DNA of 64,000 nucleotides from Adineta ricciae (taxonomy: Eukaryota > Rotifera > Eurotatoria > Adinetida > Adinetidae), in contig CAJNOJ010000278.1 in assembly GCA_905250025.1 (NCBI GenBank), forward strand, positions 1 through 64,000. Reading direction: 5' to 3'. The position numbers and the translations under genes were made by a program. Below, piece after piece: positions 8,561-61,504 of this stretch. The notes under the pieces are model-generated. The model was not told the origin of the DNA. It did no database searches and worked only from the letters and a program-made list of their open reading frames with translations. The stretch's first letter is position 1. Each line of letters begins with the position of its first letter.

Positions 8561-9696
8561 ATCTTTGTGCTACTGTGACTGTTTAAGACAACACCTGACA
8601 AGCGAAACATTATTTTGAATGATTGCTATCAGATGATATTCGTATAGTATACCTGTTTATAAAAGTGTGTGATTTCATGAATATGCTGATGACTATGGAG
8701 ATTCAGTGATCGGACGTCAGTCAGCTATTACATTTTGCTCTAGATATTGCCGCTTAAAACATTATCGTCTAAAAAATTTATCCTTTGTCACAAAGACGCG
8801 CGAGAAAATGTTCATGAAAGAACTAACACCGAATTCATGATCCTCGATCTCGATTACCCTTCGGTCAACCCTTACTACTATGAACTAGTATTAGGAAATA
8901 TTGGAAGAAAAATGAACGAACGAACGAACATCAACTCGGTTTTTCGGTGATATCAGCTCGACGTACTGCTCTCCTCCTTTCAGTAGAGAGAATAAACAGA
9001 ATGTTCATAGTAAAATATGTGCGGATGTAAACGTTTAACAGCAATAGATACCCACACGCTCAAGATGACTCATTTTTATGCTCTTTTCTTCAATGGGTTC
9101 AGTGGTGAGGTATAAACTTTGTTCAATGCGTTTCTGAGCATTCTGCATTGAACAGTTGTTAAGGAAATGGAACAGTAAATTTCCAGTGACATATCTATTT
9201 ATAGATTAGTTTGTACTCTATACGAATGGACCATAGAAATACAACCGATGACACCGTGCATCTCGCAAGAGTATGGCTGCGATTGTCTCTGCACCACAGC
9301 TGCATTTACTCGAACTGAAATGATTTTATGAAGATATCTGAGCTAATCAGTAGATTTATATCATGTAATAATCTAATTGAAATGAATCCTCTCGTGGCGA
9401 ACTCTACTGCCGATCTATAGAAAAAAACTACCTAGTTCTTAGTATTTATATTAGAAGTCATTTACTGGAATAATCTTCCATTTTTAAAAATAAAAAGAAT
9501 CATTTCTAGTGTTTTCTTATTATTGGTGCGTCCATAAAATATCTCTAAGTCATTATTTGGACGTGTTAAAAAAGTATGCATTTCGCCATACGAGATAACC
9601 TTTAAAGAATAGCTTCTCGCATGTTTTTCGTCTTATCTTGCTCGAAATAACTTTTCATAATAGATCTGACACATCAAACAAAACTATTGAATAAAT

Positions 9697-10539
9697 ATGA
9701 ATTATCCATTATTTGTTGAATCAAATCATACAGCAATTTATAAAGCATGTCGTCCGGGATATCCGAAAGAACTTTATAATCGAATATTGCAATTTTATTT
9801 CAATAGAACCGATACTGATGAAATTAATCAAAAAATTCCATTAGCCGTCGATATTGCTTGTGGTAGTGGACAAGCTACAGTTGATTTAAGTTCTTATTGT
9901 CATCATGTAATTGGTATTGATGGTAGTGAAAATCAACTGAAACAAGCATCATTCAAAGATAATATCGAATATCATTGTTCGAATGCAGAAAATTTAACAT
10001 TTCTGCCATCAAATTCAGTTGATCTTGTAACGGTAGCAACAGCATTACATTGGTTTGATATTGAAACGTTTTTTCAACAAGTTGATCGTATTCTAGAACC
10101 AAATAGCGGTGTTTTAAGTATTTGGGGCACTGGTATGCCATCATTAAATAATTTGAAGGCCAATGAAATACTAAATAACTTTTGTCAAAATGATCTTAAT
10201 AATTGTTGGAGTGATCGAGCATATTTAGTGGTAAATCAATATGAATCTATACTTGATAAATTTCCATATCAACAAACAAGAACCAAACATATTATTAAGT
10301 ATCAACGAGAAATGTCTGTTCTTGAATTTGTCAATTTTATTGAAACATGGAGCCCATGTCAAAAATATCGGGAAATTTATGGAGGTGATAAATTAAAAGA
10401 ATTATTAAAAATGTTTATGAATAATTTGGTCCAATGTTATAATGAATCAACAGATGATATCGACAAAACTACTGATAATCAAATGATCATTGTTGAATGG
10501 ATAATACATTTACATTTAATGAAAAAAAACAATCGATAA
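9697..10539 (+). CDS. SAM-dependent class I methyltransferase (TMT1/CRG1-like), copy A
   Basis: A 280-residue single-exon protein. Motif I, the SAM-binding glycine loop, is VDIACGSGQATVDLS (about 49-63). An acidic strand end follows in VIGIDGSENQLKQA, and VDLVTVATALHWFD (about 108-121) is the post-II block. The ALHWFD signature is typical of the Methyltransf_11 group that includes yeast trans-aconitate methyltransferase and Crg1, which methylate small carboxylates or lipids. The actual substrate is unknown. Likely cytosolic: no signal peptide or helix seen. The copy in segment B differs at about 14 residues by eye. Confidence 0.85.
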   Translation: MNYPLFVESNHTAIYKACRPGYPKELYNRILQFYFNRTDTDEINQKIPLAVDIACGSGQATVDLSSYCHHVIGIDGSENQLKQASFKDNIEYHCSNAENLTFLPSNSVDLVTVATALHWFDIETFFQQVDRILEPNSGVLSIWGTGMPSLNNLKANEILNNFCQNDLNNCWSDRAYLVVNQYESILDKFPYQQTRTKHIIKYQREMSVLEFVNFIETWSPCQKYREIYGGDKLKELLKMFMNNLVQCYNESTDDIDKTTDNQMIIVEWIIHLHLMKKNNR

Positions 10540-11805
10540 TACTCATTAATTAAACAAACTAGATGCGTCATTATTTCTAGAATATATGTGCCCTTTTTTT
10601 AAACTTAATTCTTAACTACGTAGTAATTAGATTTTTAAAGTAATGTTTCATTGAAATGCAAATAAATTTTCGAACAGATATCGGCAGGTACGGAATCTCT
10701 TGAGCATTTTGCCTATTTCTAATTTCTTCTAAGGCATATAGGCATTCATATTCGTATGATGGATGTATACCATGACATTTTCATGGAAAAATACAAAAAT
10801 TTTCTTTGTTTCTTTGATGTGCCCTCTTGCAATGAAGTAAGGATGTGGAGAAAAAAGATATGCCTTGACCGACACCCACACTCAATATTTTAAAGAAACT
10901 CAGTTATGCTAATGTTCTCTATTCATTATTTGATATCCATAATGAACGACTTGAGAACATTATTAGCTCAAAATACGACATAAGTCATTCCATACTCAAT
11001 CGATTCTGTGATGATATATTACCTCGAATTTCTTTCTATTAATTGTACGCAACACGCACAGATTCTATCTTATTTTGTGACCGTATTTTCATGTAGATAA
11101 TTCATCTATTTGACATATTCTAAAACAACAAATTAGGAAGCTGGAACTTATCACGGATTACGTTCATACGTGAGTGTATATGTATAAAGACACTGCTTAC
11201 AATAGTTAAATGGTGGATTAACGGAACATATACGTATATATGTAAGAGAAAAGAGAGGGTAAAAAATAGTATAATTCTCTCATTTCTCTTCTCTTCAGCG
11301 CCCTTTGTTCAATGGGGGAAGCAAGGAAAGAAGGATGGCAAATGATAGAATCATTGTTGTAGTATATACTCACGCGTACAAACAGACGATACATCTGTGT
11401 AGCATTATGTATATATTATAAGAGTTCACGGACAATTCGTCGCCATGATAATTTGTAGCACAAGTAATTACGCATGTAATTAATTAGTTGTAACAAGATT
11501 AATATAATGTACAGATAGAAAGAGACGTAAACATCGCATAGTGATCGATACATTTGTAAAACATAAAAATCTAATTTGAAAAGAAAAATTCACGATATGC
11601 GATGAAACAGACCCAATAAAAAACAACGGAATATTTGCTAAATGAACTACGATAAAAATCACTCATTATCTTGTAGAATTTTCCCAGCCAGAGTTTCCGC
11701 GAACTTCTGGCTGGCTCACGAGACTGAAAAATTCATCAAAATATAAATAGGTACACAAATGATTGTTCAATCGCATTTCAGTCCAACACCTAATCTTCAT
11801 ATTAT
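10540..11805. other. Non-coding interval after the methyltransferase, copy A
   Basis: No supported gene. The first 860 bp or so match segment B with many small indels; beyond about 11410 the match is lost, so one copy has been replaced or deleted there. Confidence 0.5.
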
Positions 11806-12138
11806 TCATTTAAAATAGCTAATACAAGAAGAAGAACTTCTTGAGCTTCCACTTTCAGGTTTCTGTTTGATTTTTATCATTAATTTCATCCAAACAAATA
11901 ATCTATCTTTGTTTAGGTGCCCATCTTTATCTTGAAATAGGATAAGTTCACCTATATCATGTTCATTTGTATGTTGTGTAATACTTTCTCTTCGGTTTCT
12001 AAGACGTTCCTGGTATCGAAAGAAAAGATTTGCTATTCCAACATGTGTCTTGACTATTTTACTTGTTATAGCAACAATTCTTTGGACTGTGATTTCGTTT
12101 CTATAAGACCTTTTGAAGCAATCCATCTTACATAGCAT
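11806..12138 (-). CDS. Hypothetical small protein, 110 residues
   Basis: An ATG-started minus-strand frame with a basic, Ser-rich C-terminus. I recognise no domain. It lies in the part of segment A that has no counterpart in B and ends next to a 5'-truncated VCBS relic on the other strand. It may be chance; low confidence. Confidence 0.25.
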   Translation of the reverse strand: MLCKMDCFKRSYRNEITVQRIVAITSKIVKTHVGIANLFFRYQERLRNRRESITQHTNEHDIGELILFQDKDGHLNKDRLFVWMKLMIKIKQKPESGSSRSSSSCISYFK

Positions 12139-12144
12139 TGGGTC

Positions 12145-12755
12145 GCTTTAAAAAGACTAGAGAGATAAATACTGCGGTGACTAATCGGGAATTGAATTCC
12201 ATCACGGTTATGTTTGGGGATGGAGAAGAAACGTTTAAATATCCTTGGTTCTATACAGTTGGCTGTGGCCCAGCTTCTGTAATGTCATATGACTTCAACA
12301 ACGATAAAATCATGGATTTGGACGTAACTAATCAATATAGTGACACGATTAGTATCATGCTCGGAAATGGCGACTACACTATTGGTTGATTCCTAGCTTT
12401 CATTATAACAGTTGATTTTGATAACAATAAGAAAATAGACTTGGCTGTAGCCAATCGATGGGATAATGTGGTGAATGTACTGCATGGAGTTGGAAATGAA
12501 AGCTTTCAAGTATCGTGAACTTATACGAATGGCCGATCTTCAGACTCGATGATAGCAACAGATTTCAATAATGACAAAAAGCTCGATACAACCATAGTTA
12601 ATTTTGACGATAGAACACTCAGTTTATTATTAGGTGATAGCGAAGAAAACATCTCACCTCAAAATCTGCCGGCTAAATCGATGATAATCAATTGGATTCA
12701 GCTATAGCGAATTTTGACGACACCCGCCTGTCTTTTGTTTTGAATATTTGAGACT
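12145..12755 (+). pseudogene. FG-GAP/VCBS repeat protein, decayed copy A
   Basis: Recurrent blocks such as DFNNDKIMDLDVTNQ, ISIMLGNG, DFDNNKKIDLAVANR and DFNNDKKLDTTIVNF are typical of VCBS/FG-GAP beta-propeller repeats, extracellular Ca-binding-type blades frequent in bacteria and in bdelloid genomes. The frame has no ATG start, a stop at 12387 after LGNGDYTIG, a second stop near 12517 and a small deletion near the 3' end. Compared with copy B it lacks roughly one to two blades in the middle. Not expected to make a full protein. Confidence 0.8.
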
Positions 12756-12937
12756 AATTCATTGATAGACTTCTATCTTTTTATCTGTATGTATATTAAT
12801 CTAGTTCTATAAGAGAGAACATAAATTTTTGATTCAACAATAGTTGCTACATGATTAAGAAAGTTTATAAGCGATGACATAGGATAAAATATTTCCTGTT
12901 CAGCTGTTTAAACAGATCACAATTATACAAAAAACAT

Positions 12938-13941
12938 TCAATGCCACCGGACCATTCTAAGCGGAGCCCCTGCTGCACTTCTGAAGCATTCTATATCTTC
13001 CTCTTGGATTCCATTCTGTCCGAGTTCCAATGAAGTCAGTGTCTATCCATGGTAAAATAGAAGAAGTCATTGCATTGATAAATGGACGATGGATATTACC
13101 GTGTTTGTTTCGAATGCATCTACAATATATTTTGCACCCTGAACTCCGAATCGATTGTGAGTGAGATCCACTGTATTAAGTCCCTATCAGTAATGGAAAG
13201 CAGATGAATGTATGCATAGAGAATGAGTATTACTGTATTTATCTCAAATGCACACCCAAGATATTGTGCTCCTTTCACTCTGATCCGATTGTATCTGAGG
13301 TTTAGCATAGTGAGTGTCTATTGACGATGAATTAGACTGATGCACCGAATACGTGCGTAGTGAATGAGCATTACCGTGTTTGTTGTCAATGCCTCGGCAA
13401 GATGTTGAACTCCTTCATCGCCGATGTCGTTGAAGCTGAGATCCAATACGATGAGTGTCTACTCATGTGATGACGTGCAGGAAAATATACGCGTAAAGGG
13501 TGAACGTTACCGTATTGATTACCAATACGTCAGCAAGATATTGCGCCCCTCTGTCATCAATATCATTGGACTGCAGATTCAGTGAAGTGATTGTCTGGCC
13601 ATCGGGTGAAATCGACGAAGATAGAAAATACGTTTACAACTAATGAATATTACCGTATTTTTTTTCAATATGTGGGCAAGATGGTGTACTCCTTTCATTC
13701 CAATTCCGACATATGCAAAATTCAGTGCAGTGATTGTCTAGAACAGTAAAACATGCCCAAAATCATGATCGATTAGATCCTGAACAATGATTGTCGCATT
13801 CACCTGATATCGAGGAAATGTTTTGAGAATTTGATTGAATCGTCGACAGACGTTTTGCATCGAGAAAAACAAAGTGTAATCATCCTGCTGATCCAGAATT
13901 CTATACACGAGTTCTACGGGTAAACTGGTAAACTTAGCCAT
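12938..13941 (-). CDS. F-box and leucine-rich-repeat protein, 7 exons, copy A
   Basis: Hand-spliced minus-strand gene: exons 13804-13941, 13654-13737, 13511-13594, 13375-13458, 13234-13317, 13100-13183 and 12938-13042. The introns (66, 59, 52, 57, 50 and 57 nt) are all GT...AG and phase 0. The 220-residue product begins with an F-box (LPVELVYRILDQQDDY...), which normally binds SKP1 of an SCF ubiquitin ligase. Each of the next five 84-nt exons encodes exactly one 28-residue ribonuclease-inhibitor-type LRR (LNLxxNxIxxxGxxxLxxxLxxNT); the last exon encodes a partial sixth and a stop. Copy B has the same structure. Likely a substrate-recruiting adaptor; the target is unknown. Confidence 0.85.
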
Positions 13942-14800
13942 AATTGCTGTTTCGTTCTGATTGGTGGTGAAATTTCATCATCATTTGTTGAAAGAAATGA
14001 AATCTGGCATGACCAATAAGAAATGTTTATTAAGTTGCAAACAGATGGAACTAGTTTATTTGTTTGATGCAATTAGTCATTGAAAGAGGTGCCGTTCAAA
14101 CAAGACATTATAGGGAATTTTTAGCAAAGGTCTTAAAAATCTTAAACTCGTGCAAGTTTCATTAATACGACAATTTATTTCTTCGCCGTTCTACTCGCCA
14201 TAAATAGATCCGAAGTTTTTTTTAATGACGCGTGCTATACTCTGGACAATGATCACATATTTTTTCTTATGATATTTTATGAGTATCGTCTCCAAACGAT
14301 ATATTGTAGGTATTTCGATGTCTCTTCTTCTTTATTATCATAACTTGCAAATTTTTTCTACATTGAAAAGTACAATAGACAGATATCGATAGTCATAACT
14401 CAATACGTTCGCAAGTAGCTATGTTAATGTAACAGTTTGTCCTTGTATTAATGATGCCTCACTTCCCGTGTATGCTCGATTGACAAAATCACACATTGAT
14501 TTTTTCATTTCTCTACACATCGAGAAGGATGAGAAAAAGAAATGAAGCATATGACTCCGTTCGGTAATTTTTGTCTAGTACACGTGAATAGCTACGTTTC
14601 ACAGTAATTTATTCGCTTTAAAAATGTTCGTACAATCCTTGATCAATACGCCTTCTTCCATCGTTCGCAGTTTTGTTTTTTTACAGTGTATGATTAGTAC
14701 CAAAGCATCCATTTTTTGTTATTTACTTTGAAGGCCGAGTAGATGTCTTGTGAGTTTTCGTTTTAGTGCTACTTTTGATCTTTTTGTCAAAATTGGTCAG
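13942..14800. other. Non-coding interval between divergent genes, copy A
   Basis: Intergenic space between the F-box/LRR gene (leftward) and the dehydrogenase (rightward), so it should hold both promoters. It is conserved in B with small indels. TTTTCGTTTTAG just upstream of the dehydrogenase ATG could be a 3' splice site of a 5'UTR exon. Confidence 0.5.
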
Positions 14801-15927
14801 ATGGGTATATCAAGTATGAAAGCTGCTCGTTACTATGATCGAAACGATATTCGTGTTGAAGAAATGTCTGTTCCGCTCGTCGGCAAGAAACAAGTGAAAA
14901 TCGAAGTGAAATATGCTGGAATCTGTGTAGCAGATGTACATGAATATTTACATGGCCCAATATTCATCCCGATGAAACAACCCTATTTACCAAATGGACA
15001 CCATGGTGTAACGACGATGGGACGTGAATTCTCAGGTGTAGTTGTGGAACTGGGAGATGATGTTAAACGCACTGATATTCAGATAGGTGATCGTGTTGTG
15101 GTAGAACCATTAGTTCGAAATCAAGACAAATCGAGTGTAGCTGAACCTATAGGCTGTATTGGTCTGAGTTGCAATGGTGCATTTGCTAAATATGTAGTTG
15201 TCGACGATTACATGGTGCATAAAATTCCAGATGCGATCACTTTTGAACAAGGTGCATTAGTAGAGCCTGCTGCTGTAGCTGTACATGCTGTTAAATGTAG
15301 TAATTTACAACCAGGTACTTTAATATTTCTTGTAAAAACGTCTTTTCATATGTTGCATGTACATAATTATCTCTAATTTTAGAAGAGACTTGCGTCATTT
15401 TTGGTGCTGGTCCAATCGGTTTGCTCTGTCTTCAATCTGCACTGGCTTTCGGTGTCACTCGTATCATCATTGTTGACATTGTCGATAAACGCCTAGAGAA
15501 AGCACGTGAATTGGGCGCTACATTGGTTATTAATGGCAAGGACACAAATATTTGTCAGCAAATCAAAGACTATACGAATGGTGCGGGGACACATGTTTAT
15601 TTTGATGCAGCAGGTACAGAATCAACATTCGCTACAGGTATCTCATGTTTGAGACGAGGCGGTCGAGCGATATTAATTGCAGTGTTTCCAAAACCGTTGA
15701 CGTTCGATGCAATGGATATTGTTACACGTGAGATAAGTATTCGAGGAATATCCGATTATCAAAATGCGTTCGGTGAAGCCATCCAACTGATCAATAATAA
15801 GAACATGGATGTTGAACGAATTGTTTCAAAGAAAATCAAATTAGATGATATTGTGAAAGATGGATTTGACACTTTATCATCGGATCTTTCACACATCAAA
15901 ATTCTAATTGATATTGGTTCGGACTAA
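14801..15927 (+). CDS. MDR-family dehydrogenase (butanediol/sorbitol dehydrogenase-like), copy A
   Basis: Two exons, 14801-15314 and 15383-15927, with a 68-nt intron (CCAG/GTACTT ... TTTTAG/AAGAG), giving 352 residues. The N-terminal GroES-like half shows GICVADVHEYLHGPIFIP, close to the GICGSDLHEYLDGPIF region of 2,3-butanediol dehydrogenases. The Rossmann half has VIFGAGPIGLLCLQSA and ends an acidic strand at VDIVDKR. Oddities: the zinc-binding GHE motif is GRE, and the four-Cys structural-zinc lobe is absent (VVVEPLVRNQDKS runs straight on). It may therefore be a zinc-independent or altered-activity member. The start at 14801 fits family alignment; a second ATG is at 14816. Confidence 0.85.
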
Positions 15928-16431
15928 TTCGCTCATATTCACTAAATTTCGTATTTTGTATTATTTTACTTAGTTATTTTGATTCTGATAGAGAAAATAA
16001 AGCGTCAACTTCCTTTTCTGCTGTCGGCGTTGACAGGGCATAAATAATTTCATCTCCGTCACTTACATCACTGCTTACAGTGGAAATATCGACCGACGAG
16101 CTTGTTTATTCTGGACGTGAATGTGATATGATGTGTCGTGTTCTTTATCAAGCAAGTGATCGCAAAAAAAAACAATAAAGAATCCTTAGTTTTATTCTTG
16201 TCACTCTCGTTAAATATTTGCTGAGCGTAGTACTTATTTAGACGTATGTAAGTATCGCCGATTGTCATTTTTCCTCATGCACTTTCGTACATCCTATTTA
16301 TGTATAATATAATTCATTAGAAACAGTAAAGTCCATTAGAATATCGATCGATTAGTTTTCAAAAGATCACGTTTCCTGATTTTTCGTGAAAATAGACAAG
16401 ATTGAGAAGAGGACACTATTATGAAGCTCGA
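15928..16431. other. Non-coding interval, copy A
   Basis: Intergenic; conserved in B with a roughly 75-bp length difference near 16020. No RNA gene or repeat recognised. Confidence 0.45.
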
Positions 16432-18400
16432 ATGTCGATGAACTTCAGAAATTTTACTTCTATAGGAATGGCAAAGAAAACTGCTCCACGCAAATTGTCT
16501 ACCAGTAGCGCTCGCTTTACAAGCAATACTTTCTCAGATCTTCAAAATGTAAATCAGAGTCCAATATTCGGTTACGAGGATTTGCCCGTGGTGACTCTAG
16601 AAAAGGCTGTGCAAAAATTACTTTCTTTGGTACCAAACCTCACGCATCATGTTATCAAAGCGAAAGAAAAGTGTAACAAAGATTCGGAGGTGTTGACGCT
16701 GAACGAATCAGCAGCAATATATCTGTATTCCATGCCGGTGCCGTTCTTTTCCCGACTGAACAGCGCACTTCGTGCCGAGAAACGTCACGCATTGAAGCCT
16801 TGGTTCTCCTTTCTCAAATTATTTCTTACGGCGCTGGACAAACTGCCTTCCCTCGATATTCGAGTCTGGAGAGGTGTTGGAGATAATGTGAATGCTGACT
16901 TTACTGAGGGTCAAATGGAAACCTGGTGGAGCGTAAATTCCTGTTCAAAAGATCTCAATATTGTAGAGAAATTCTTGGGTGATAAGGGCACCTTATTCTC
17001 CATCGATGTTTTGCATGGTAAAGACATTTCTGAGTATTCATCGATTCCAGAAGAACGAGAAGTTGTTCTTATTCCTGGTACTCGCCTACTTGCAAAATGT
17101 AAACCATGCAATTTTGCAGACCGTCTTCTCATTATTCATTTGGTGGAGGAAAAGGACCATCTTTTAGAAGAAACGATACACCTGTGAGTATTCTTAGCGG
17201 ACTAACGCAGTTTGCAAAGCTTGTCATCCCGACAAATGTTTAATGAAGAAAGTTTTGGGGAAATGCGTATTTAAGACTGCTTACATATTTCAGCCAATAG
17301 TTTATGCTAGAGTCTTACGTTTTTTTTTGCTTAGAATCGATCGTACATTGGCCAACGACACTGCATCTCAAGATGAAGAGATAAGTTTAATGTCGGAAGA
17401 AGAATGCAATATATATATGGGAATCTCTGCATCGATTTCTACAGCCGAATATGAAGGTCCAAGGATCGTTGAAAATGAAAGACCGCCACGGGCAATATAT
17501 GAGTGTGACGGTGATTCGGTAATTCGTCTTTTAAATCCAGCAAATTTAGAAATTGAGGCTGAGCAAAAGCACTTTGCACACCGTGACACTGGTGCATTTA
17601 TGAACTGGTTTTTCATTCGCAAACTTGTATTTCATAATTCGAGCAAAGAAACAATAGCCGTCCTTCATTTATCAGGTGAATATGAAGATACGTTAGGAAA
17701 TTGGCAAATGTGCAAGTATGTTATGATTGGTCAGCCAGTTGGACCAAATGAAAGCATCACTTTTAGCCATGACGTATGCATTAATCTACCGGCATCGAAT
17801 ATTGCCAGTTATGCTGTTAACATGGCAGTGGAAGCTCATTGTAGGCCCGGTTATGATGAAAATTATCAAAATCGAGCACATAAAAGCTTTCCCCAGCCAT
17901 TGAAGCTTAGACTCACAGCTCACGATACAATGGGTAAGGTTTGTCGACTCATTTTTGAACAGTTCAATTCACCTCTGGTTCTACCGACGCCAGAGCGTAC
18001 GGCTCGGAAATTATCGATAGACGCTCAGCAGATTGTTGATTGGATATCTGTTGACGATAGCGAAACACTCACACGCATCTTTACAGTGCTTTATTTGGAC
18101 GACAAGGCATGCCTTCATGTCGTTACTGTCTCTTCGAATAATACTTGGGACGATCGGTACCTTGACGAAGATAATATTAAAAGTCTTCAGAAAAAAGCAA
18201 AAAAGCAGCAAACTGCCGAAATGGCGTTGGAGAATTTTGGAGTTTCAGACAAAATTCAACACATAGCTTTGTTCGATCCAGCGACCTTTCGCATGTATGC
18301 TTTACGAATCATTTTGCTATCAACAACGTCCAAAACGAGCAAAATGGTTCGACTGCCGCTCGACAAGATAAGAAGTAACGGTTCTCATTCGGCAATGTAA
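16432..18400 (+). CDS. Arginine ADP-ribosyltransferase fused to an unknown C-terminal region, copy A (intact)
   Basis: Exons 16432-17183 and 17335-18400 (intron 151 nt, ACACCT/GTGAGT ... TTTTTTTGCTTAG/AATCG) join in frame to about 605 residues. Residues about 45-245 match the ART (RT6-like) fold with the R-S-ExE signature: R in IRVWRGVG, the Ser block in WWSVNSCSKD and EEREVVLIPG. This predicts transfer of ADP-ribose from NAD to arginine. No signal peptide is obvious, so it may act inside the cell. The remaining about 350 residues are an unrecognised, mostly beta-rich region ending in a basic tail. The last codon of exon 1 and an early stop after GTGAGT show that without splicing only the ART part would be made. 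Copy B is a pseudogene. Confidence 0.75.
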
Positions 18401-18529
18401 ACATGGGCTCAACAATATACTTATATATTCAGCGATATGTACGTTTTTAGGGAAAAAGGAAGAGTTTGTGTTTATTTTTCCTATTTTTCTGACAGAAAAA
18501 GCAGAGCTGCCACACTACTGTTGTTGCCA
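18401..18529. other. 3' flank of the ADP-ribosyltransferase gene
   Basis: Short AT-rich spacer; probable 3'UTR. Nothing else seen. Confidence 0.4.
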
Positions 18530-25400: not shown

Positions 25401-25634
25401 TAGCTGTTCCAGCTACTATTCGTTGTTTCAGAGCAACAGGATTTCGATTTGTGGCTTCAGTTGCCTTTAAAGATCGAATGTTCCCATCGATCTGAGTTCG
25501 ATTAGTCAGTGATTGTTGAGATCGCCTCGACAGGCATTTCACTAGACCTGTTGCTGTTAAAATCTTTTTAAATCCATATCGAGTACAACGTTTAAATTCA
25601 GCATTGAATTTTGAACTGCTAAGAGTGTATATGT
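25401..25634 (-). pseudogene. GPCR 3' end, truncated copy A
   Basis: Only the last roughly 75 codons of the receptor at 50747-51877 are present (ending ...ALKQRIVAGTANV-like, with LSSSKFNAEFKRC at the upstream side). The match stops abruptly at about 25634 (AAGAGTGTATA) and unrelated sequence follows. This is the right-hand edge of segment A. Confidence 0.85.
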
Positions 25635-31522: not shown

Positions 31523-31544
31523 AGTGTTAACTAATTATTAATTA

Positions 31545-50746: not shown

Positions 50747-51877
50747 TTATACATTAGTTGTTCCAGCTATTATTCGTTGTTTCAGAGCAACAGGATTTCG
50801 ATTTGTGGCTTCAGTTGCCTTTAAAGATCGAATGTTCCCATCGATCTGACTTCCATTAGTCAGTGATTGATGAGTTCGCATCGACAGGCATTTGACTAGG
50901 CCTGTTGCTGTTAAAATCTTTTTAAATCCATATCGAGTACAACGTTTAAATTCAGCATTGAATTTTGAACTGCTAAGAGTGTATACGTAAAATCCAATCA
51001 CACAATTAGTGTAATAAAGTGTTCGAGTACTATACCAGAATAGATTGTAAATCGCTCGATCCTGTGGCGAAAATTGTAGTTTAAGAAATGTCAATCCAAA
51101 TGTACTGAACATTCTGACACAACAATATGGAATCGCAAGCAGAGTAGTAATCGTTACTTGAGTTAAAAGCATTCGAATCAATTGACGATCATTGAAGCGC
51201 AGTTGATCGTTTCTTGTCCTATCTTCTTGTGGGCCGACACGATTTCGAATTTGCCGAACATTGAGAAATGTTAAAATACCGAAAATGACCATAAATAGAA
51301 TTGGTAGGATGCAAGTTGTCATAAGAAACAACATATTCAAAAAAATTAAATAGTCTGATGATTGACCATTGCAAGTGATCGGGCTACCGCTCGTATACAC
51401 TCTATATACGAATGGTATGTGCCCATAGATTAGGAAAAAGGAGAAGATGGTGAATATAATTGTTTTCTTAGATATTGATGCATTGCTCATGCGACGAATT
51501 CGCGCATCATGTGAATTTAAGAGATATCGGTCGAAACTTGCTAGAACAATAAATCATAATACGAGACAGAAGACAGGATTTGCCACCCAGTTTCGTAGTA
51601 TACACAAAGGATTATTGATAGTTGCGTAGTCCCAATTCCATATGTTTGAAAGATATTGATGAAGAATCGCCATATAGATCACAAATAAGTTGCTGATCGA
51701 AGCAGCCAGAAAATACATTGAATATGGATTGCTACGTAACGTCGACCGAGTGAACACAATTATGTTGAAAATATTTCCACATGTTCCAAAAGCAATTTCT
51801 AAGATAGGAGCAATGTGATTAATCCAAATTATAGTCAAATTGATATTTTCAATCACACTATCGATTGAGCTCGACAT
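50747..51877 (-). pseudogene. Rhodopsin-like GPCR with one in-frame stop, copy B
   Basis: A full-length seven-helix receptor from ATG 51877 to stop 50747, about 376 codons, with GNIFNIIVF (TM1), a DRY-type FDRYLL and a long basic C-tail. One TGA near 51555 replaces the Trp codon TGG seen in copy C (VLWFIVLASFDRY). Everything else is open, so the inactivation is recent, or the base is a sequencing error. Copies A (3' end) and C (5' half) are truncated at different points, so no intact version exists in the window. Confidence 0.8.
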
Positions 51878-53645
51878 AATCTAGGTGTTCAATAAAGGGA
51901 ATATGTTTATTGAAAACTATCTTGGTAAAGAGACTACGTCTGTTTCTGTTTTCAAAAATTAGACTGTTGAGTGGACTTTCTATCGTTTTGAATAAGTTTT
52001 GCTGACAGCTAATATGAACGGGTTAAAGCAAAAGGATTAAATTGGCGAATCACAGGCAGGACGGTCTTTTCAATATGCTCGCTTTTTAATAGACAATAAA
52101 GTGGCATGTGACGTTGGAAGAATTAAATCACTCTTCTATTCAGCTTGTGAAGAACCACTCATAAATTGAGAATTACAGACTTATTTCAAATGAGAAAATA
52201 AAAATTTCGGTCAAATCTCAGTGTTAAAATTGATTCTTCTCTAAATTAATTTTAAGTTCAGCCGAAAAATAAGACCGTGCTCAATGTAAAAGATTTACGC
52301 ATATATTGTTCTGTTACTAGTGATGATACTGTACACTTACTTGTCAAAAGTAACTGCTTTTCGCTGTATTCTGAAAAGGTATTATCAAACGCGTCTGATA
52401 TATTGTTATTGATCACGTAGTAATAAATTTTTATATACTTTCTTTTGATATATGAACTGCACTAAGCAAATCGTCTGGTCACACAATATAGTTCGTACTA
52501 TATATAGCCATTGTGTCATGATTTACACCCCGAAGACACGTTGTAAACCAATTTATTTTGATCGAGTCGGATGTATTACCTATAGCTGTGATAGTTTCAA
52601 TAAAAGAGAAGTCATGTGCTTTTTCATATAATTACGATGACAAAAAAGATTATCTTGTTGTTGTCATCTGTACGAGACATGATTTATAACATTAATCATA
52701 CAAGTCTGACAAGATAATAATAGTAACATAGAGATAAACAAGTAACAGAGTAGAGTCTCGACAACACGAACACCAAGATATTTTTATGAACTGCTAATTT
52801 CTTATTTATTTCCATCGGAAACTGTAATGAGAGAGAAAAGGGAGAATGTGAACGCTATTTACTTATTCACACTCATATTTTACATCTATTCTCAAGATTC
52901 ATATCAGTGATAGAGAATTGTAGACATCAAGAAGAAGCAAATGTATATTTTAACAGCAGACTATGCACTGCTGTAGCTCGACTTGAGTGAGAATCCTAGC
53001 TATACTGCTTTACTTAGACGTAAATAAAATACAGTGATTTAGAATTAAAATTTATTTCTTCAATACGAATGAAATGGAATCTTTTACAAGATGATCAGAA
53101 TGATTCTCAGTTAATGCTAATAGAGTACATTGTTTTTGAAGATATTTCGAAGCTTCGGACAATACACGAAGAGCACATAAATGTGAGGAAATGGAACAAA
53201 TTGTTTTCGATTGTGTTTCAAATATTCTCAATTGTTCGCATCGCAATTGCTCTTTCAGACGTACATATAATGGCGACACCTGATAAACACATTGGTGTGC
53301 TGTACATCGAAGAGGTTTTCCTTGCACATTCTGATTGGCGTTTTGATTATTTAATGTTAATGTATCTATTTCCATTTTTTACGATTCATTCCAAATCAAA
53401 TTATTCAAAATTCAGTATCTGTTTCGAATCTGAACTCTCTTTCCTTTACAAAAAACAACGAATGACTCAATCAACTACGTAATATCTCTCCAATGAATAC
53501 AAATTGGTACATGAATGTACTTTTATTTTACATTACTCATATTATACACCTACAGTTTATAATGACATGCTCACTACATACTCCCGATGCACTTTTTCAA
53601 TATTTTTCTAGAAATAAAACACCCATGAATCAAGCAGTGTGCACC
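51878..53645. other. Non-coding interval between GPCR and flavoprotein, copy B
   Basis: Collinear with segment C. The region 53052-53482 is open on both strands, but in C about 130 bp of it are deleted, so I do not call a gene. An N-terminal open extension of the flavoprotein (from 53493) is probably 5'UTR. Confidence 0.45.
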
Positions 53646-53746
53646 ATGGCTGAAAAACTGAATATAATTATCGTAGGCGCGTCCTATCTTGGCAGTAAAG
53701 TTGCTCGAGCTCTCGCAAAGTCAATGCCTCAAGATTTAGCTGCAAA
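53646..53746 (+). pseudogene. AIFM2/FSP1-like flavoprotein, 5' end cut at N, copy B
   Basis: The first 33 codons (MAEKLNIIIVGASYLGSKVA, the FAD-binding glycine loop) are followed by the N at 53747 and then the inside of a MITE. The point of interruption is not a TTAA, so this is not a simple insertion; likely a scaffold join rather than a true gene break. Confidence 0.75.
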
Positions 53747-53747: not shown

Positions 53748-53976
53748 ACGTATATATACGTCCAGCTACAAATTAACTTGTACTTTGCATCCTCACAACT
53801 TTTGTTATGTCCTTATGTGATATATATGATTACAGACAATGAATGCTCACATATAACATGGTGAGATATCATCTTTCATACTATGTTCTCATTTAAAATA
53901 TTTCTAGAAAAAATATTTTATTAGTTTTTCAAAACTCTCATTTTCTGCTGTAATAACCCCGTCCCCAAGGGGTTAA
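53748..53976. mobile_element. piggyBac-like MITE, copy 2 (left end lost at N)
   Basis: Almost identical to 31556-31776, and adds the right terminal repeat CCCCGTCCCCAAGGGGTTAA. Same orientation as copy 1. Confidence 0.75.
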
Positions 53977-54777
53977 TTAACTTATCATTAGCTGCATATA
54001 GAATATTAATATTCGCAGTAAGAATTGGTCGAAGAGTAATCTATAGTGAGGAACTCGAGTTTCATGTTTGCTTTACTTAATTTATTAATTATTAACTCCG
54101 TGCGAATCAGAGATGTCAACATTCTCCATTCCCAAGCGTTGCATTTGGAGGAATGGAACAGATTTCAGATAACGTTTTATAGCATCTTCCCAAACACAAC
54201 GAAGGTATTGACATATAAATATCTACAACATTAAGCAAAACCATCATCCGTTTCCTGTTCCGGGAATGAGAACGCTTCAAGCTTTCCTCGTTCTTCTTGC
54301 CGCATTCTTGAACGAAGAACGCCACAAAATCTTTTACTTTTCCAAGGAGAGGCACGTTTCACTCTTTTTTGTCTACTCGAAACGTGAGTAGACTACTAGA
54401 ATCAATCAGTGTGGCCGTCCGACCGTTTACACGATAGCTTTCGATAGAAAAATCGGAACATAGGCAAAGTTAGCACTATATTCAAGTACTTCTTGTCCAG
54501 ATTCGTCTGTTTACTTGTTTTGACTTTCAGGACGATTGTGTTAGATGCGCAATTTGTTGCTGTATCGAATAGTATCAAATTTGATGGGGGTAACCGTCCA
54601 AAAAAACAGTTTTTCACCCAGATTTCAGAAAAAACAACGTTTGTATTTCTTGTCCAGATTCGTTCTATGAGTTGTTTTAGCTTCAGAGACGGTCGTGTTT
54701 GTGTGCGAACTCAATTCTCTATCGAATGATATTATTTTCAGTGGGGGTTATCGGAGGTGATGGTGTTGGGTGTGTGG
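53977..54777. other. Non-coding interval with a diverged tandem duplication
   Basis: No supported gene. Two related units begin CTTGTCCAGATTCGT at about 54491 and 54649 and run about 110 bp each; both end in G-rich GATGGGGGT/GTGGGGGTTA. The upstream part is AT-rich spacer. Confidence 0.45.
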
Positions 54778-54989
54778 CCCAGGTAAAAAATCCGATCGGA
54801 TTCCTGGAAACGGAATTGCATTGGAATCCGGCTAGAAAAATCCCGTCGGTTGTTGCAAATGTTATGAGCGATCTTTTTAGCTATGTTCTATGATGATCCT
54901 TAGAAAATCCACGCTTCGAATCCGTCGAATTCCTGTAGGATCTGATAAAATCCTATATTGGATCCGAGTATGGGATTGTTCGACCTGGG
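54778..54989 (+). mobile_element. CCCAGGT-type palindromic element, complete copy
   Basis: Begins CCCAGGTAAAAAATCCGATC and ends GATTGTTCGACCTGGG, so CCCAGGT/ACCTGGG forms short inverted ends. The interior repeats variants of AATCCGATCGGATT, a self-complementary 14-mer. No coding capacity. Related to 31778-31941 (inverted) and, at the ends, to 58140-58391. Confidence 0.65.
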
Positions 54990-55613
54990 CACAGCAATAC
55001 GATGAGCTGGTCAAAACTGCCATCTCGCGTTAACCGAGTAAACTTCCCCCAGCATCCTGTTGGTTACCATGAGTTTCTAAATCGCGCATCGATGTTTTGG
55101 AGGAAAGAATGGTTCTAAGACATAGCTGAAGTCGAATTCGCAATAGATTCTGTCATTTTATGAAGAATCATTGCGAGCTGAGATATCTTATGACCTGAAT
55201 GAAGATTTCATTCAGCCTTTCTCCCTTTCCGGTTGACGGTTCTTACCCTATGTCGACCTTCCTCGGAACCTCAGAGACCGTCATGAAAAGTTTAGTGACG
55301 ATAGCTATCACAGGGACTAAGTACATATTGAACAGACAGTCAGAAAATAACCTTTCTTCTTTATACATGTAGAAGATAATATTAGTTTAGGTTAGATTTT
55401 ATCATACGCAGTACAAATGTTCTTATTATCAACAATAATCTTTATAGTTAGCCAATCGTATGAGTTTTTCTTTCTCCTAATAATTATATTTTGCAGAGAG
55501 AAAAACTGAAGGAAAAGAATATAACAAATGTTCATTTTATTCATTTCTTTGTTGCTGACAGAAATTAAAGTCGTCGTCTGAAAGACAACTGAAGACTTCA
55601 TCGACAGATTAGC
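54990..55613. other. Non-coding interval upstream of the Kelch gene
   Basis: No supported gene; presumed promoter and 5'UTR of the gene at 55614. Confidence 0.45.
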
Positions 55614-57145
55614 ATGAAGGCTGCTACAAGTCAAACCAATATTTTCTCAATCGACACATTGTAATCTCTATAAAACTAGAATTGCAAACTAACTGATTAA
55701 TATTTGTTGTAGGAGAAAAAACCTAGGAAAGAAACGACTTGTATGGCTGAGTATCGGTATAATTATAGTGATTGTAGCAGCTACTATTATTCCAGCAACG
55801 CTTGTTCTAACGAAGAAGAGTAGCACAACATTGGCAACTGTTGGAACAACAACGAATAGCACAACACTAACAACTGATGGGACAACAGTGAATAACACAA
55901 CATTGTCAACTATTAGAACATCAACGAATAACACAACGCTAACAACTGCTACAACAACAGCGAAAAGCGCATCAACTATTACAACGGAAATAATCACGAC
56001 AACACCTACTAGCAAAGGTAACCATGTCTATAGAAATTACTAAGAATAGTATTCTAAACGAAACTGTAGCCTGGGTACAACTTAATCAAATGAATGAGTT
56101 ACGAATATATCACACAGCATCATTATTGCTCGACGGAAGAGTTTTGGTAACTGGTGGTGAACGCGAAAAAACTGGTTTGAATACTGCTGAGTTATTTGAC
56201 CCAGACACAGGAATATGGTCTCTCGTGAATCCCATGAATTTCCATCGAGAAAGACATACAGCGTCTGTACTGAAGGATGGAACAGTTTTAGTCACAGGTG
56301 GTTTGAGCAGAGAAAATTCCCTTGTTAGTTCAGAAGTATTTCATCCAAACAATCAAACGTGGACAATAACAGATGACATGAATGATGGAAGATATGGTCA
56401 TACAGCAACTGTATTATCGGATGGTAGGGTATTAGTTACTGGTGGAGGTGAGAGTACGGACAGGTAGTTTCGTACAAGGCTAAAAATGGTACTTTCACTG
56501 ATTCAGTATGTAAAATTTGATTTTAGTGCCGAAATATATGATCCACTCAATAGAACATGGACAAAAACTGCTAACATGACACGACCGCGACAATGGCATC
56601 AAGCTTCCGTTTTACTAGATGGCAAAATCTTGGTTACAGGAACAAGCCCAAAAGCTTTACATGCAAATACAGATCACTATAAGGATATGGGATGCAACAC
56701 TGAAATATATGATCCAGTCACAGAAACATGGATAAATATCACTAATATGCATGTATCACGATATTTCCATACAGCAACAGTATTATTAGATGGAAAAGTA
56801 TTGGTTACTGGTGGAGTTTCTACTCTTGACATGAAAACTACAGAACTGTATGATCCAGAAACTGGGAAATGGGCACAAACTAGTAGATTAAACACTGGAA
56901 GAGGAATTCATAGAGCATTGTTACTAGCAAGTGGACGTATTTTAGTTACTGGTGGTTTGCATCGCCTACGTGAGACAAAAAATGTTGAACTATATGATCC
57001 GTTTAATAAAACATGGTCCCTGATCGATGCTATGAATTGTGGTAGATCTGGCCATACACTATTGACAGTAAGGAATGAAGCAGTGTTGGCTATTGGGGGT
57101 ATACGAAGGAATATTCAATGTAGTGCTGAACTCTTTTCACCATGA
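55614..57145 (+). CDS. Kelch-repeat type II membrane protein, 4 exons
   Basis: Exons 55614-55660, 55713-56017, 56070-56463 and 56527-57145 (introns 52, 52 and 63 nt) join in frame to 454 residues. A short basic cytoplasmic N-terminus is followed by one helix (LVWLSIGIIIVIVAATII, about 24-41), a Thr-rich stalk of about 65 residues (mucin-like, likely O-glycosylated), then six or so Kelch blades of the form R-HTA-L-DGRVLVTGG...E-YDP...W. These blades are of the bacterial/galactose-oxidase-like style common in bdelloids, joined to an animal-type stalk and introns. Predicted extracellular beta-propeller for binding; no copper-oxidase residues can be claimed. One copy only. Confidence 0.85.
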
Positions 57146-57710
57146 AACTCAACCATCAGTAATTTTTTTTGTCAACCGCTTTCAGACACTTTATCAGTTT
57201 AATTAAACCTCGTTTCTTTTGTGCTTTGCAACAATCATTGCTTATACTTTGAACTCTACTTTCTATTCAATAGTTTGTATATGTATGAGGAGGAAACAGG
57301 GTGAGGGTGAAGATGAGTTTGAAAATAGGATTAAAAAGAAACTTTAATTAGAAATCTTTTCACCTGCCCACGATACAATTTAATCAAGATCATTTAAGAT
57401 ATCCACGGCGATATACTTACAATGGAAGTGTTCGAACTGTAAGTTGAATTTACCAGATATTTTTGCATCAGTAGAAAGCCCTCACCGCCAAACTAGCATT
57501 GTTAAAATATTACCGGTTGTTAGCGTACCCTTATGGAGATATTCGATTTTTAAAATATGCATGGCTAGGGCATATACGTACTTTAAGATTGTTTCTATTG
57601 ATTTTTTTATACAATTAACCAGATACTTTACTTCTAGACTAGTAGAATCTTTGTGAAGCTTATTAATAGAATTAAGATCATCCCTAATTTCGATGTCTTC
57701 TGTTACCTAG
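57146..57710. other. Non-coding interval
   Basis: No supported gene. Ends with the left target-site copy TTACCTAG (57703-57710) of the MITE that follows. Confidence 0.5.
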
Positions 57711-57808
57711 CAGCGGCGGATTTAGGGGAGGGGGAGGGCGATGAGGGCTATCGCCCCCCTCCCCCTCCAAAAATCGTCCCTCCCTTCAAAATCCTAGATT
57801 CACCACTG
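57711..57808. mobile_element. hAT-type MITE, 98 bp, with 8-bp target duplication
   Basis: Starts CAGCGGCGGATTTAGG and ends CCTAGATTCACCACTG, inverted repeats with CAG...CTG ends. It is flanked on both sides by the direct 8-mer TTACCTAG (57703-57710 and 57809-57816), the hAT signature. The inside is a G-rich arm and a C-rich arm that can form a hairpin (GAGGGGGAGGGCGAT ... ATCGCCCCCCTCCCCCTC). Confidence 0.9.
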
Positions 57809-57816
57809 TTACCTAG

Positions 57817-58048
57817 ATGCTATCTAAATTGGAAAAGATACATAATATCTTTCCCAATTTATGCGCGCGTATAATATTCAAAACCGAAAGTGCATTGATG
57901 CGTCACTTGGTGGTCTATTGACCACTTATTTATGATTGGTGTTATGAAATCACAATGAAATATACTATCCAAGAATTATTCTCTTTCATTCTCTGCTTTA
58001 TCTACCTATCAGGAACGTCTACTTAATACAATTAAAACATGAAATTAT
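57817..58048. other. Non-coding interval
   Basis: AT-rich spacer; nothing recognised. Confidence 0.4.
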
Positions 58049-58139
58049 GAGTAGCTGCCTAATTCGACTTATAATATAAGTGACCAATTCCTAGCACTCT
58101 TAGGCATAGAAATAGATTTAGTTTTGCTTATACATACAT
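58049..58139 (+). repeat. Interspersed repeat R1, copy 2
   Basis: About 90 bp nearly identical to 8404-8494. The palindromic element at 58140 follows at once, and the 3' part of R1 reappears on its other side at 58415-58454. Confidence 0.75.
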
Positions 58140-58391
58140 CCAGGTTATTATGGCACGGTCGATTCCGGCCGGTTAGGTTCGTTCTCCGACCATTTCCTTG
58201 CCACCGGATTCCGGCCGGAAGTTGAAACGTAGGTTCCAGTTATTTCCCGACCGTTTCCTGCAAACTTCGAGCTGGAAACGGTCAGGAACTGATCGGATAT
58301 TTCCTGTGCAATTCCGGCCGGAATCGAGAAGAGCTGTACCGGAACCGACTCAGGTTTCAACGGATCCAGTTGTCGGAATGATCGACCTGGG
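58140..58391 (+). mobile_element. CCAGGT-type palindromic element with TTCCGGCCGGAA modules
   Basis: Begins CCAGGTTATTATGG and ends GGAATGATCGACCTGGG, the last bases matching the right end of 54778-54989. The interior carries several copies of ATTCCGGCCGGAAT and near variants, much richer in GC than its surroundings. CAT lies at both outer edges (3-bp target duplication possible). No coding capacity; open frames across it are a by-product of its symmetry. Confidence 0.6.
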
Positions 58392-58457
58392 CATACTCTC
58401 ACAACCCTGTGAGTTTAGGAATAGAAATAGATTTACTTTTACTTATACATATATCTA

Positions 58458-58480
58458 CCCACGCCCACACCCTCCCTCAC
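58458..58480 (-). repeat. Telomere-like tract at the edge of segment C
   Basis: CCCACGCCCACACCCTCCCTCAC is a degenerate run of CCCACA-type units. Homology to segment B begins at the next base (58481), inside a GPCR coding region. Confidence 0.55.
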
Positions 58481-58864
58481 ACGAATTCGCGCATCATGTG
58501 AACTTAAGAGATATCGATCGAAACTTGCTAGAACAATGAACCATAATACGAGACAGAAGACAGGATTTGCCACCCAGTTACGTAGTATACACAAAGGATT
58601 ATTGATAGTTGCGTAGTCCCAATTCCATGTGTTTGAAAGATATTGATGAAGAATCGCCACATAGATCTCAAATAAGTTGCTGATCGAAGCAGCCAGAAAA
58701 TACATTGAACATGGATTGCTGCGTAATGTCGACCGAGTGAACACAATTATGTTGAAAATATTTCCACATGTTCCAAAAACAATTTGTAAGATAGGAGCAA
58801 TGTGATTAATCCAAATTATAGTCAGATTGATATTTTCAATCACACTATCGATTGAGTTCGACAT
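58481..58864 (-). pseudogene. GPCR 5' half, truncated copy C
   Basis: From ATG 58864 the minus strand encodes TM1 to TM3 and the DRY-type motif (ASFDRYLLSSHDARIR), then runs into the telomere-like tract. It keeps the Trp codon lost in copy B. The remaining helices are missing. Confidence 0.85.
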
Positions 58865-60358
58865 AATCTAGGTGTTCAATAAAGGAAATATGTTTATTGA
58901 AAACTCTTAGTAAAGAGACCACGCCTGTTTCTCTTTTGAAAAATTAGAATGTTGAGTGGACTTTTTGTCGTTGGAAATAAGTTTTGCTGACAGCTAATGT
59001 GAGCGGATTAAAGCAAAAGAATTGGATTGGCGAATCACGGGCATGAGGGTCTTTTCAATATGTTGGTTTTTTAATAGACAACAAAGTGGCATGTGACGTT
59101 GGAAGAATTAAATCGCTCTTTTATCAAGCTTGTAAAGAACCACTCATAAATTGAGGATTACAGATTTATTTCAAATGAGAAAATAAAAATTTCGGTCAAA
59201 TCTCAGTGCACAACTGATTCTTCTCTAAATTAATTTCAAGTTCAGCCGAAAAATAAGACCGTGCTCAATGTAAAAAATTTACGCATATATCCTTCTGTTA
59301 CTAGTGATGATATTTTACATTTACTTGTCAAAAGTAACTGCTTTTCGCTGTATTCAGAAAAGACATTATCAAACGCGTCGGAAATATTGTTATTGCGATC
59401 ACATAGTAATAAATTTTTATATTCTTTCTTTTAATATATGAACTGCAGTGGTGTATCACCTCTAGCTGTGATAGTTTCAATGAAAGAAAAGTCATGTGCT
59501 TTTTCGCATTATTGCGATGACGAAAAAGATTATCTTGTTGTTGTTGTCATCTTTACAAGACATGATTTATAACATTAATCATACAAATCTCACAGGATAA
59601 TAATAGTGACATAGAGATAAACAAGTAACAGAGTAAAGTCTCGACAACACGAATACGAAGATATTTTTATGAACTGATAATTTTTTATTTATTTCCATCG
59701 GAAACTGTAATGAGAGAGAAAAGGAAGAAGATGAACGCTATTTACTTATTCACACTCATATTTTACATCTATTCTCAAGGTTCATATCAGTAATAAAGAA
59801 TTGTAGACATAAAGAAGAAGCAAATGTATATCTTAACAGCAGGCTATGCAATTACTGTAGCTCGACTTGAGTGAGAATCCTAGCTACTGCTTTACTTAGA
59901 CGTAAATAAAATAGAGTGATTTAGAATTAAAATTTATTTCTTCAATGTGAAGAAATGGAACGATCGTTGTCGATTGTGTTTCAAATATTCTCAATTATTC
60001 GCATCGCAATTGCTCTTTCAAATGTACATATAATGGCGACACCTGATAAACACATTGGTGTGCTGTATATCGAAGAGGTTTTCCTTGCACATTCTGATTG
60101 GCGTTTTGATTATTTAATCTTAATGTATTTATTTGTTCGAATCTGAACTCTCTTCCCTTCATAAAAAACAACGAATGATTCAATCAACCACGTAATATCT
60201 CTCCAATGAATACAAATTGGTACATGAATGTACTTTTCTTTTACATTACTCATATTATACACCTACAGTTTATAATGACATGCTCACTACATACTCCCGA
60301 TGCACTTTTTCAATATTTTTCTAGAAATAAAACACCCATGAATCAAGCAGTGTGCACC
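58865..60358. other. Non-coding interval, copy C
   Basis: Collinear with 51878-53645. No supported gene; the frame from 60206 to 60358 is open upstream of the flavoprotein but the better start is the ATG at 60359. Confidence 0.45.
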
Positions 60359-61504
60359 ATGGCTGAAAAACTGAATATAATTATCGTAGGCGCGTCCTAT
60401 CTTGGTAGTAAAGTTGCTCGAGCTCTCGCAAAGTCAATGCCTCAAGATTTAGCTGTAAATCATCGTATTTTATTAATCGAGCGAAACTCCCACTTTTCAC
60501 ATTTATTCACTTTCCCAAGGTTTGTCGTCGTACCGAACCACGAACACAAAGCATTTATTCCAATGAGTAAACTATTCAATGAAGCACAATGCAACGCTCA
60601 AATCATCACTGCCTCGGTAGAAACTGTCAATGAGAGCGAAATAGTTCTCGACAGAGATACGCCATTTGGTCGTCGACTACCTTGGCATATCTTAGTCATG
60701 GCAACTGGTTCGCGATTATCACCACCTGCAAATATGCCAACAAGCACAAAAGTTGACTCAGTGCAATATTTAAAAAATCTACAAGAACGAATACGAACTG
60801 CGAAAAGTATCGCTTTAGTCGGTGGAGGTGCTGTTGGTGTACAGATCTCAACGGATATCAAAAGTTATTATTCTGATAAAGAAGTCCATTTGATTCACTC
60901 GAGAGATCGATTGATGTCGAGATTTGATGCAAGTCTTGGCGATATTGTTCTTCAAACGTGCAAAGAACTCGGGATTCATGTTCATTTAGGAACGAGAGCA
61001 AAACTGCCCGATACCGACGGACCATGTACAATAGAACTTCAATCTGGCGAAATAATATCGGTTGATCTTTATTTGAAATGCACAGGACAAGTTATTAATT
61101 CTGAACCGATTCGTGAATTAGCGAAGGAAAGTATTAATTCTGATGGAACTATTCATGTATTACGAACTTTACAAGTTGAAAAGCATCCTCGCATCTTCGC
61201 GGTTGGTGATGTGAATGATTTATTACATATCAAATCAGTTAGACCTGCAATTGGTCAAGTGGAGGTTGCTCAGAAAAATATAATTTCTCTTCTGCGAGGT
61301 CAAACTCCAGAAGCAACATTTGAAAACAATGCAGCAGGAATTCATCTTACTCTTGGACTTAAACGTGACGTTTATTGCAAACAGACTCAAGACGGTTCAT
61401 CTCCAGCGGATATCGAAGTCGAGGATGATGAAGGACTCGAAGATATGGGTGTTGAATTTATGTGGAACGATCTGGGCGCGGATAAAAACGATTTCTGGGC
61501 TTAA
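60359..61504 (+). CDS. AIFM2/FSP1-like NAD(P)H flavoprotein oxidoreductase (complete)
   Basis: I start at ATG 60359 (CACCATGG, a textbook initiation context), giving 381 residues, near the usual length of AIFM2-type proteins; ATGs at 60206 and 60338 are in frame upstream. FAD-binding loop IIIVGASYLGSKVA at the start, ATGSR in the middle, a second nucleotide-binding loop ALVGGGAVGVQ (about 160-170) and IFAVGDVND near 280 (FAD ribityl site) define the two-dinucleotide-binding fold. Family members reduce quinones in membranes; that activity is inferred. The C-terminus is acidic (EVEDDEGLEDMG). Fragments of two further copies occur at 53646 and 63728. Confidence 0.85.
   Translation: MAEKLNIIIVGASYLGSKVARALAKSMPQDLAVNHRILLIERNSHFSHLFTFPRFVVVPNHEHKAFIPMSKLFNEAQCNAQIITASVETVNESEIVLDRDTPFGRRLPWHILVMATGSRLSPPANMPTSTKVDSVQYLKNLQERIRTAKSIALVGGGAVGVQISTDIKSYYSDKEVHLIHSRDRLMSRFDASLGDIVLQTCKELGIHVHLGTRAKLPDTDGPCTIELQSGEIISVDLYLKCTGQVINSEPIRELAKESINSDGTIHVLRTLQVEKHPRIFAVGDVNDLLHIKSVRPAIGQVEVAQKNIISLLRGQTPEATFENNAAGIHLTLGLKRDVYCKQTQDGSSPADIEVEDDEGLEDMGVEFMWNDLGADKNDFWA

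Follow-up and report, generated by a model that had tools for sequence, protein, structure and literature searches.

Segments and genes at the locus

The window analysed here (64,000 bases at its full length, corresponding to bases 1-64000 of scaffold CAJNOJ010000278.1, hereafter C278, in the Adineta ricciae assembly GCA_905250025.1) carries a rhodopsin-family G-protein-coupled receptor (GPCR) gene, a large multi-domain receptor, a Kelch-repeat coding stretch and three related segments: A (9125-25634), B (31942-53746, within the assembly piece 31778-53746) and C (58481-60459). As deposited, B lies between A and C and resembles both, an arrangement that the first-pass annotation read as a segment nested within its own homologue (A plus C), with the caveat that the Ns might conceal a misassembly. 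It is to this caveat that the evidence points: judged from the sequence, the nested duplicate is very probably (at roughly 95%) an assembly artefact, in which two haplotypes of one locus (haplotypes 1 and 2 below) would have been interleaved by scaffolding. The segments and open reading frames (ORFs) on which the argument turns are the following, with the haplotypes as we would assign them:

9125-25634, plus strand: A, left part of the proposed haplotype-1 allele of B (direct match to 31942-50988).
58481-60459, plus strand: C, right part of the same proposed allele (direct match to 51494-53746).
50747-51553, minus strand: seven-transmembrane (rhodopsin-family) ORF, uninterrupted on haplotype 2, inside which A ends and C starts (ORF list, Pfam).
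26146-31017, minus strand: 1623-codon ORF with LDLa, EGF and 7tm_1 domains, from a multi-copy family, found at this locus on haplotype 1 only (ORF list, Pfam, genome search).
55994-57145, plus strand: Kelch-repeat coding stretch made of two same-frame ORFs split by a stop, at this locus also on haplotype 1 only (ORF list, genome search, Pfam).

Comparison of the window with itself (blastn) reproduced the annotated coordinates: A aligns with 31942-50988 and C with 51494-53746, both directly and in collinear order. Summarised per piece (high-scoring segment pairs, HSPs, of at least 80 bases), mean identity was 89.7% between A and B (15,230 aligned bases, 17 HSPs) and 91.2% between C and B (2,049 aligned bases, 3 HSPs). 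As 15 of the 24 A/B and C/B rows of the self-comparison had E-values of 0.0 or below 1e-100, the similarity is far beyond chance, and fortuitous resemblance was rejected as its source. The last match of A in B ends at 50988 and the first match of C begins at 51494 (505 bases between them), which confirms that A stops and C starts within the same GPCR gene, some 500 bp apart in B; at its right end, the match of B to C reaches the final base before an N at 53747.

Junctions of segment B

Four single Ns interrupt the window (1801, 31777, 53747 and 63727), and the piece holding B (31778-53746) is bounded exactly by those at 31777 and 53747. The pieces on either side of it (P2 and P4, counting the pieces between Ns from the left end of the scaffold, so that B is P3) share a stretch of 211 bases, 31566-31776 and 53748-53958, that is 100% identical and touches the two Ns on their outer (non-B) sides. 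Both copies belong to a miniature inverted-repeat transposable element (MITE), the left one carrying TTAA and an inverted-repeat end at its start and being truncated by the N at 31777, the right one being truncated by the N at its left and running on its other side to the opposite inverted-repeat end and TTAA. The union of the two halves measures 250 bases and matches a copy on scaffold C216 over 250 of 250 bases (97.2%, ungapped). A genome search with the 211-base stretch recovered the two C278 copies along with copies on C216 (98%) and C889 (92%). The element is short (250 bases), ends in TTAA, has near-matching terminal inverted repeats and is multi-copy, as a MITE should be, and a search for inverted repeats within each half singly returned none, as expected for halves. 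We presume it to be piggyBac-like, on account of the TTAA and the end sequence. The pieces and joins of this part of the scaffold are listed below, again with haplotypes and false adjacencies as we would read them:

1802-31776, plus strand: piece P2, haplotype 1, with A, the large receptor and the left MITE part at its right end (single Ns at 1801 and 31777; tiling).
31545-31776, plus strand: left 232 bases of the MITE, with TTAA and terminal inverted repeat, cut by the N (sequence readout).
31566-31776, plus strand: end overlap of P2 with P4, 211 bases, 100% (self-blastn).
31777, no strand: single-N join, putative false adjacency of P2 and P3 (self-blastn, sequence readout).
31778-53746, plus strand: piece P3, which is B, haplotype 2, starting inside a repeat at 31778-31881 (single Ns, tiling).
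53747, no strand: single-N join, putative false adjacency of P3 and P4 (self-blastn, sequence readout).
53748-63726, plus strand: piece P4, haplotype 1, putative continuation of P2 (211-base overlap, tiling).
53748-53976, plus strand: right 229 bases of the MITE (of which 53748-53958 is the overlap with P2), with inverted repeat and TTAA end (sequence readout).
63727-64000, plus strand: single N followed by the first bases of P5 (haplotype 2), whose sequence copies that from 61104 on (self-blastn, tiling).

On a plain reading of these junctions, P2 and P4 would overlap within one MITE and belong together, with B set between them, since the 211-base identity corresponds to the overlapping halves of a single element. 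Furthermore, beyond the overlap, the gap is flanked by A (in P2) and C (in P4), both of which match uninterrupted sequence of B. The deposited order (A, B and C on one scaffold and on the same strand) is also what a real nested direct duplication would produce, in which a ~22-kb copy of the locus was inserted into the additional 10.7 kb of its homologue on that chromosome, as has been suggested for same-scaffold homologous blocks of bdelloids, and an earlier A. ricciae assembly is reported to contain two tandem homologous blocks on one scaffold (PMC5916493). Such an event, however, would require B to have entered the MITE with a 211-base target duplication and to lie exactly between two Ns. 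Moreover, where a true same-chromosome block should have continuous junctions away from the assembly joins, both junctions of B are single-N joins. That B was nested in its own homologue by way of the MITE and its 211-base target duplication, leaving a locus that could not be split into haploid sets, strikes us as very improbable.

Tiling of two putative haplotypes along the scaffold

The whole of C278 (123,490 bases, 34.2% guanine plus cytosine) holds 10 single Ns and consequently 11 pieces. We compared the ends of direct HSPs (at least 85% identity, at least 100 bases) with the positions of these Ns, taking 20,000 draws of 10 random positions as the null. A downstream copy of upstream sequence begins within 200 bases past the N at 7 of the 10; the copy start lies within 20 bases at six (random mean 0.12, maximum 3), and a copy starts or ends within 20 bases of eight (random mean 0.32, maximum 4). 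All 35 direct HSPs connect different pieces and none lies within one; three inverted HSPs of the same size and identity class are also found on the scaffold. Beyond the MITE junction, P5 copies P4 (from 63728 and 61104, respectively), P6 copies P5 (72546, 66779), P7 copies P6 (90548, 78262), P8 copies P6 (94049, 83379) and P9 copies P8 (116302, 101756), and P10 copies P8 from 103623, beginning only at 119917, ~1.2 kb into P10.

Sorted by the sequence that they copy, 9 of the 11 pieces fall into two ordered tilings. In the first (P2, P4, P6, P9, P10), P2 and P4 share the 211-base overlap, P4 reaches the equivalent of 66337, ~440 bases short of the start of P6 at 66779, and P6 reaches the equivalent of 100953, ~800 bases short of the start of P9 at 101756. 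In the second (P3, P5, P7, P8), P3 reaches the equivalent of 60459, ~645 bases before P5 begins at 61104; P5 reaches the equivalent of 78265 and overlaps P7, which begins at 78262, by ~3 bases; and P7 reaches the equivalent of 81761, ~1.6 kb before P8 begins at 83379. This end-to-end tiling at Ns argues against duplications, as real ones have no reason to tile in such a way, and a nested duplication would require similar events to have coincided with seven of the scaffold's 10 Ns. Given these restarts, the overlap of P2 with P4 and the single-N joins, the claim that B is truly nested in its homologue on one chromosome is not supported.

The N evidence would equally suit a B that is a dispersed paralogue from elsewhere in the genome and was misplaced in the scaffold, since the placement of a contig alone is silent on where B belongs. 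Nevertheless, the later pieces P5, P7 and P8 continue the haplotype of B in tile order, and as the tiling extends beyond B this candidate was rejected; we consider it the least probable of the readings weighed here. Two further features of the scaffold were recorded: the sequence also restarts after the Ns at 63727, 72545, 90547, 94047 and 116301, where the large direct duplications along C278 are likely alleles, and 106000-112000 consists of multi-copy repeats (many copies genome-wide at 72-96%) that are likely transposable elements.

Copy number and divergence

Part of A (24000-25634; 1,635 bases) and two parts of B (35302-38986 and 51494-53746, the second being the counterpart of C; 5,938 bases) were searched against the genome, in searches that score only the best candidates and are not proof of absence. 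Above 85% identity only the two C278 copies were listed for these parts, and the longest match outside the scaffold was 71% over 1.1 kb, on C912. Likewise, the long matches above 85% to C278 84001-90000 come from two places on C278 only, next to four shorter matches elsewhere (129, 43, 35 and 35 bases; 88-94%) that look like repeats. For C278 1900-9000 (almost all of the sequence left of A), no second copy above 80% and 60 bases was found among the 40 of 524 candidates scored, apart from the repeat at 8557-8996; this ~440-base multi-copy repeat, just left of A, has 81-91% copies on many contigs.

Substitution rates were pooled over 7 ORF pairs picked by hand from the ORF list, giving 0.115 synonymous (Ks) and 0.029 nonsynonymous (Ka) substitutions per site (Ka/Ks 0.25); six of the pairs range from Ks 0.100 to 0.172. 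Mean Ks values reported for A. ricciae are 0.135 between homologues and 1.267 between ohnologues (PMC5916493), so that our value is near the former and far from the latter. In the seventh pair, the end of B (53180-53746) and its counterpart in C (59944-60459), Ks is only 0.017 over 91 shared codons, possibly through local gene conversion or by chance in so short a stretch.

The two tilings, the two genome copies of the searched parts and the Ks of 0.115 make B most likely the other allele of A plus C, and the collinear matches, the split GPCR gene and the Ks support the earlier view of A and C as one diverged homologue of B. The same data bear on both of the competing explanations. A nested duplication should be accompanied by alleles of both copies unless these had collapsed, and none above 85% were found for the searched parts; a tandem or nested segmental duplication was rejected on the junctions at Ns, the split MITE and the two copies at the searched places, and we give it little credence. 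If B were a dispersed paralogue, A plus C would have no allele in the assembly, even though a divergence of ~10% should prevent collapse; the Ks, too, fits homologues.

Single-N joins on other scaffolds

Further stretches, chosen through matches to the MITE or to A and not at random (they support no genome-wide claim), were taken from C216 (50 kb), C889 (whole, 17.3 kb), C47 (20 kb) and C735 (16.8 kb), bringing the joins examined to 16 single Ns on three scaffolds. C216 and C889 contain three single Ns each, and at four of these six a copy starts within 200 bases. At two of the four restarting joins, the sequences immediately flanking the N overlap almost identically (221 bases at 100% and 181 bases at 99.4%); these joins lie at C216 record positions 88740 and 97856 and represent contigs that should have been merged. 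In C47 and C735, which are free of Ns, direct repeats of the same class (at least 100 bases, at least 85%) are absent. A short locus on C517 contains a run of 26 Ns, a gap of a different kind.

Several observations weigh against an interleaving of haplotypes. The 211-base overlap sits in a repeat family and could, by itself, join unrelated contigs, and the C889 copy of the MITE is likewise cut by an N. Three of the 10 Ns of C278 (1801, 118752 and 121542) show no restart (the short piece that precedes 1801 has an inverted repeat of its own sequence at its end, and 121542 coincides with a block end), and two of the six Ns on the other scaffolds (at 40225 of the C216 stretch and at 10760 of C889) are without a copy; one of the four restarts, at C889 8845, reflects a local tandem repeat running across the N and lends weak support. 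The gaps of 0.4-1.6 kb at the tiling joins are unaccounted for, P1 and P11 are placed in neither tiling (the sole direct match of P11 to another piece, P8 at 74%, is too low for an allele here), and a further copy could have been missed by the genome searches.

Interleaved alleles as a probable assembly artefact

We propose that two parental versions of one chromosome stretch were broken into pieces and strung alternately on one scaffold: contigs of both alleles (~10% apart) would have been laid in rough positional order on a single path, with one N per join. Haplotype 1 would run from P2 (with A) directly into P4 (with C) through one MITE, and B (P3), the haplotype-2 contig of the same locus, would have been put into that join. 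The repeats at the ends of P2, P3 and P4 presumably broke the contigs, and the scaffolder may have linked the alleles since links from either haplotype fit both.

An artefact of this type is known. In false heterotype duplication (the term of the Vertebrate Genomes Project), divergent alleles are kept as paralogues on the same scaffold with Ns between the copies, such gaps being described as one of its marks (PMC9516828). C278 shares these traits: Ns flank B, seven of the 10 Ns are followed by a restarting copy, and every one of the 35 direct HSPs runs between pieces. The outer contigs can moreover be joined without the duplicate (through the 211-base overlap, whose union restores a complete MITE), and the parts of A and B that were searched have two copies above 85%, with an allele-like divergence (Ks 0.115 over the 7 ORF pairs). 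Unlike that description, the alleles of C278 alternate piecewise over more than 100 kb, and one allele's contig is set into the overlap between two contigs of the other. We regard the locus as a clear case of a known artefact type; it does not represent a novel genome architecture.

For ancient asexuals, the occurrence of homologous blocks on a single scaffold has been taken as evidence of chromosomes that cannot pair (PMC5916493). With the bdelloid blocks described by Nowell et al. 2018, C278 shares direct tandem blocks on one scaffold and breaks at gaps, and its authors note that many of the collinearity breaks they detected extend across gaps in the scaffolds, suggesting that errors of scaffolding may account for at least some of them (PMC5916493). 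The cases reported there comprise two tandem blocks in a 174.5-Mb A. ricciae reference assembly (compared with 130.5 Mb for the assembly used here) and, for the A. vaga genome of 2013, 23 palindromes and two tandem arrays (PMC5916493). A study of parthenogenetic genomes warns that its own palindrome list includes misassemblies (PMC7953838). The C278 locus would illustrate how the same-scaffold pattern can arise from scaffolding alone, and it offers signs by which this may be recognised from sequence: joins made of a single N, contig ends that overlap identically across an intervening contig, and a tiling of pieces into two haplotypes. Duplication calls and gene counts drawn from the assembly should be checked in the same way.

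A probable structural difference at the GPCR gene

Apart from the artefact, the locus probably holds a genuine difference between the alleles. With P2 and P4 joined, ~10.7 kb of haplotype 1 (25635-31776 plus 53959-58480) take the place of 505 bases of the GPCR gene on haplotype 2, and B passes through this site without an N. The 33-kb interruption of A plus C that had been annotated stands to this extent only: ~10.7 kb would belong to the A plus C homologue, and the other ~22 kb is B itself. The ORF at 50747-51553 matches 7tm_1 (E = 1.4e-10, Pfam); relative to its protein, identity is 88% on the A side (residues 187-268) and 64% on the C side (residues 1-28, roughly the first 19 being within matching DNA). 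The best matches elsewhere (38-46%, among 145 listed) align unbroken over ~200-250 of the 267 residues of the receptor, and since its best relatives align in one stretch, B would have the whole version of the gene and A plus C a copy without the middle. The alleles thus probably differ in structure, haplotype 1 having lost the middle of the GPCR gene, a conclusion that depends on the P2/P4 join being right.

The longest matches of the 1623-codon ORF elsewhere in the genome are at 66-79%, the closest long copies being at 75-79% (best 37 of 364 candidates), and 53990-58480 matches only two short repeats elsewhere, with none over the Kelch part (best 40 of 977 candidates); in these searches of best candidates, no allele of the 1623-codon ORF or of the Kelch ORFs was found. 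No target duplication was visible by eye in the sequences at the edges of the 10.7-kb stretch (no systematic search of the termini was made). The absence of 505 bp of the GPCR gene, together with the lack of a visible target duplication, makes the stretch look like a replacement; on the same grounds, the reading of B as the empty site of a clean insertion by a transposon found no support.

Other reading frames in A and B

On the minus strand of B, a 354-codon ORF (43344-44408) is open and has a weak 7tm_1 match below the Pfam cut-off; at the matching place in A the ORF list holds no ORF of at least 150 codons. Within A, the ORF at 16396-17187 matches the NAD:arginine ADP-ribosyltransferase family (ART, E = 9e-9), and that at 23413-24411, with a counterpart at 48696-49718 in B, matches the PapA_C and alcohol acetyltransferase families (Pfam scan of the A ORF only), which is unusual for an animal and possibly reflects horizontal acquisition.

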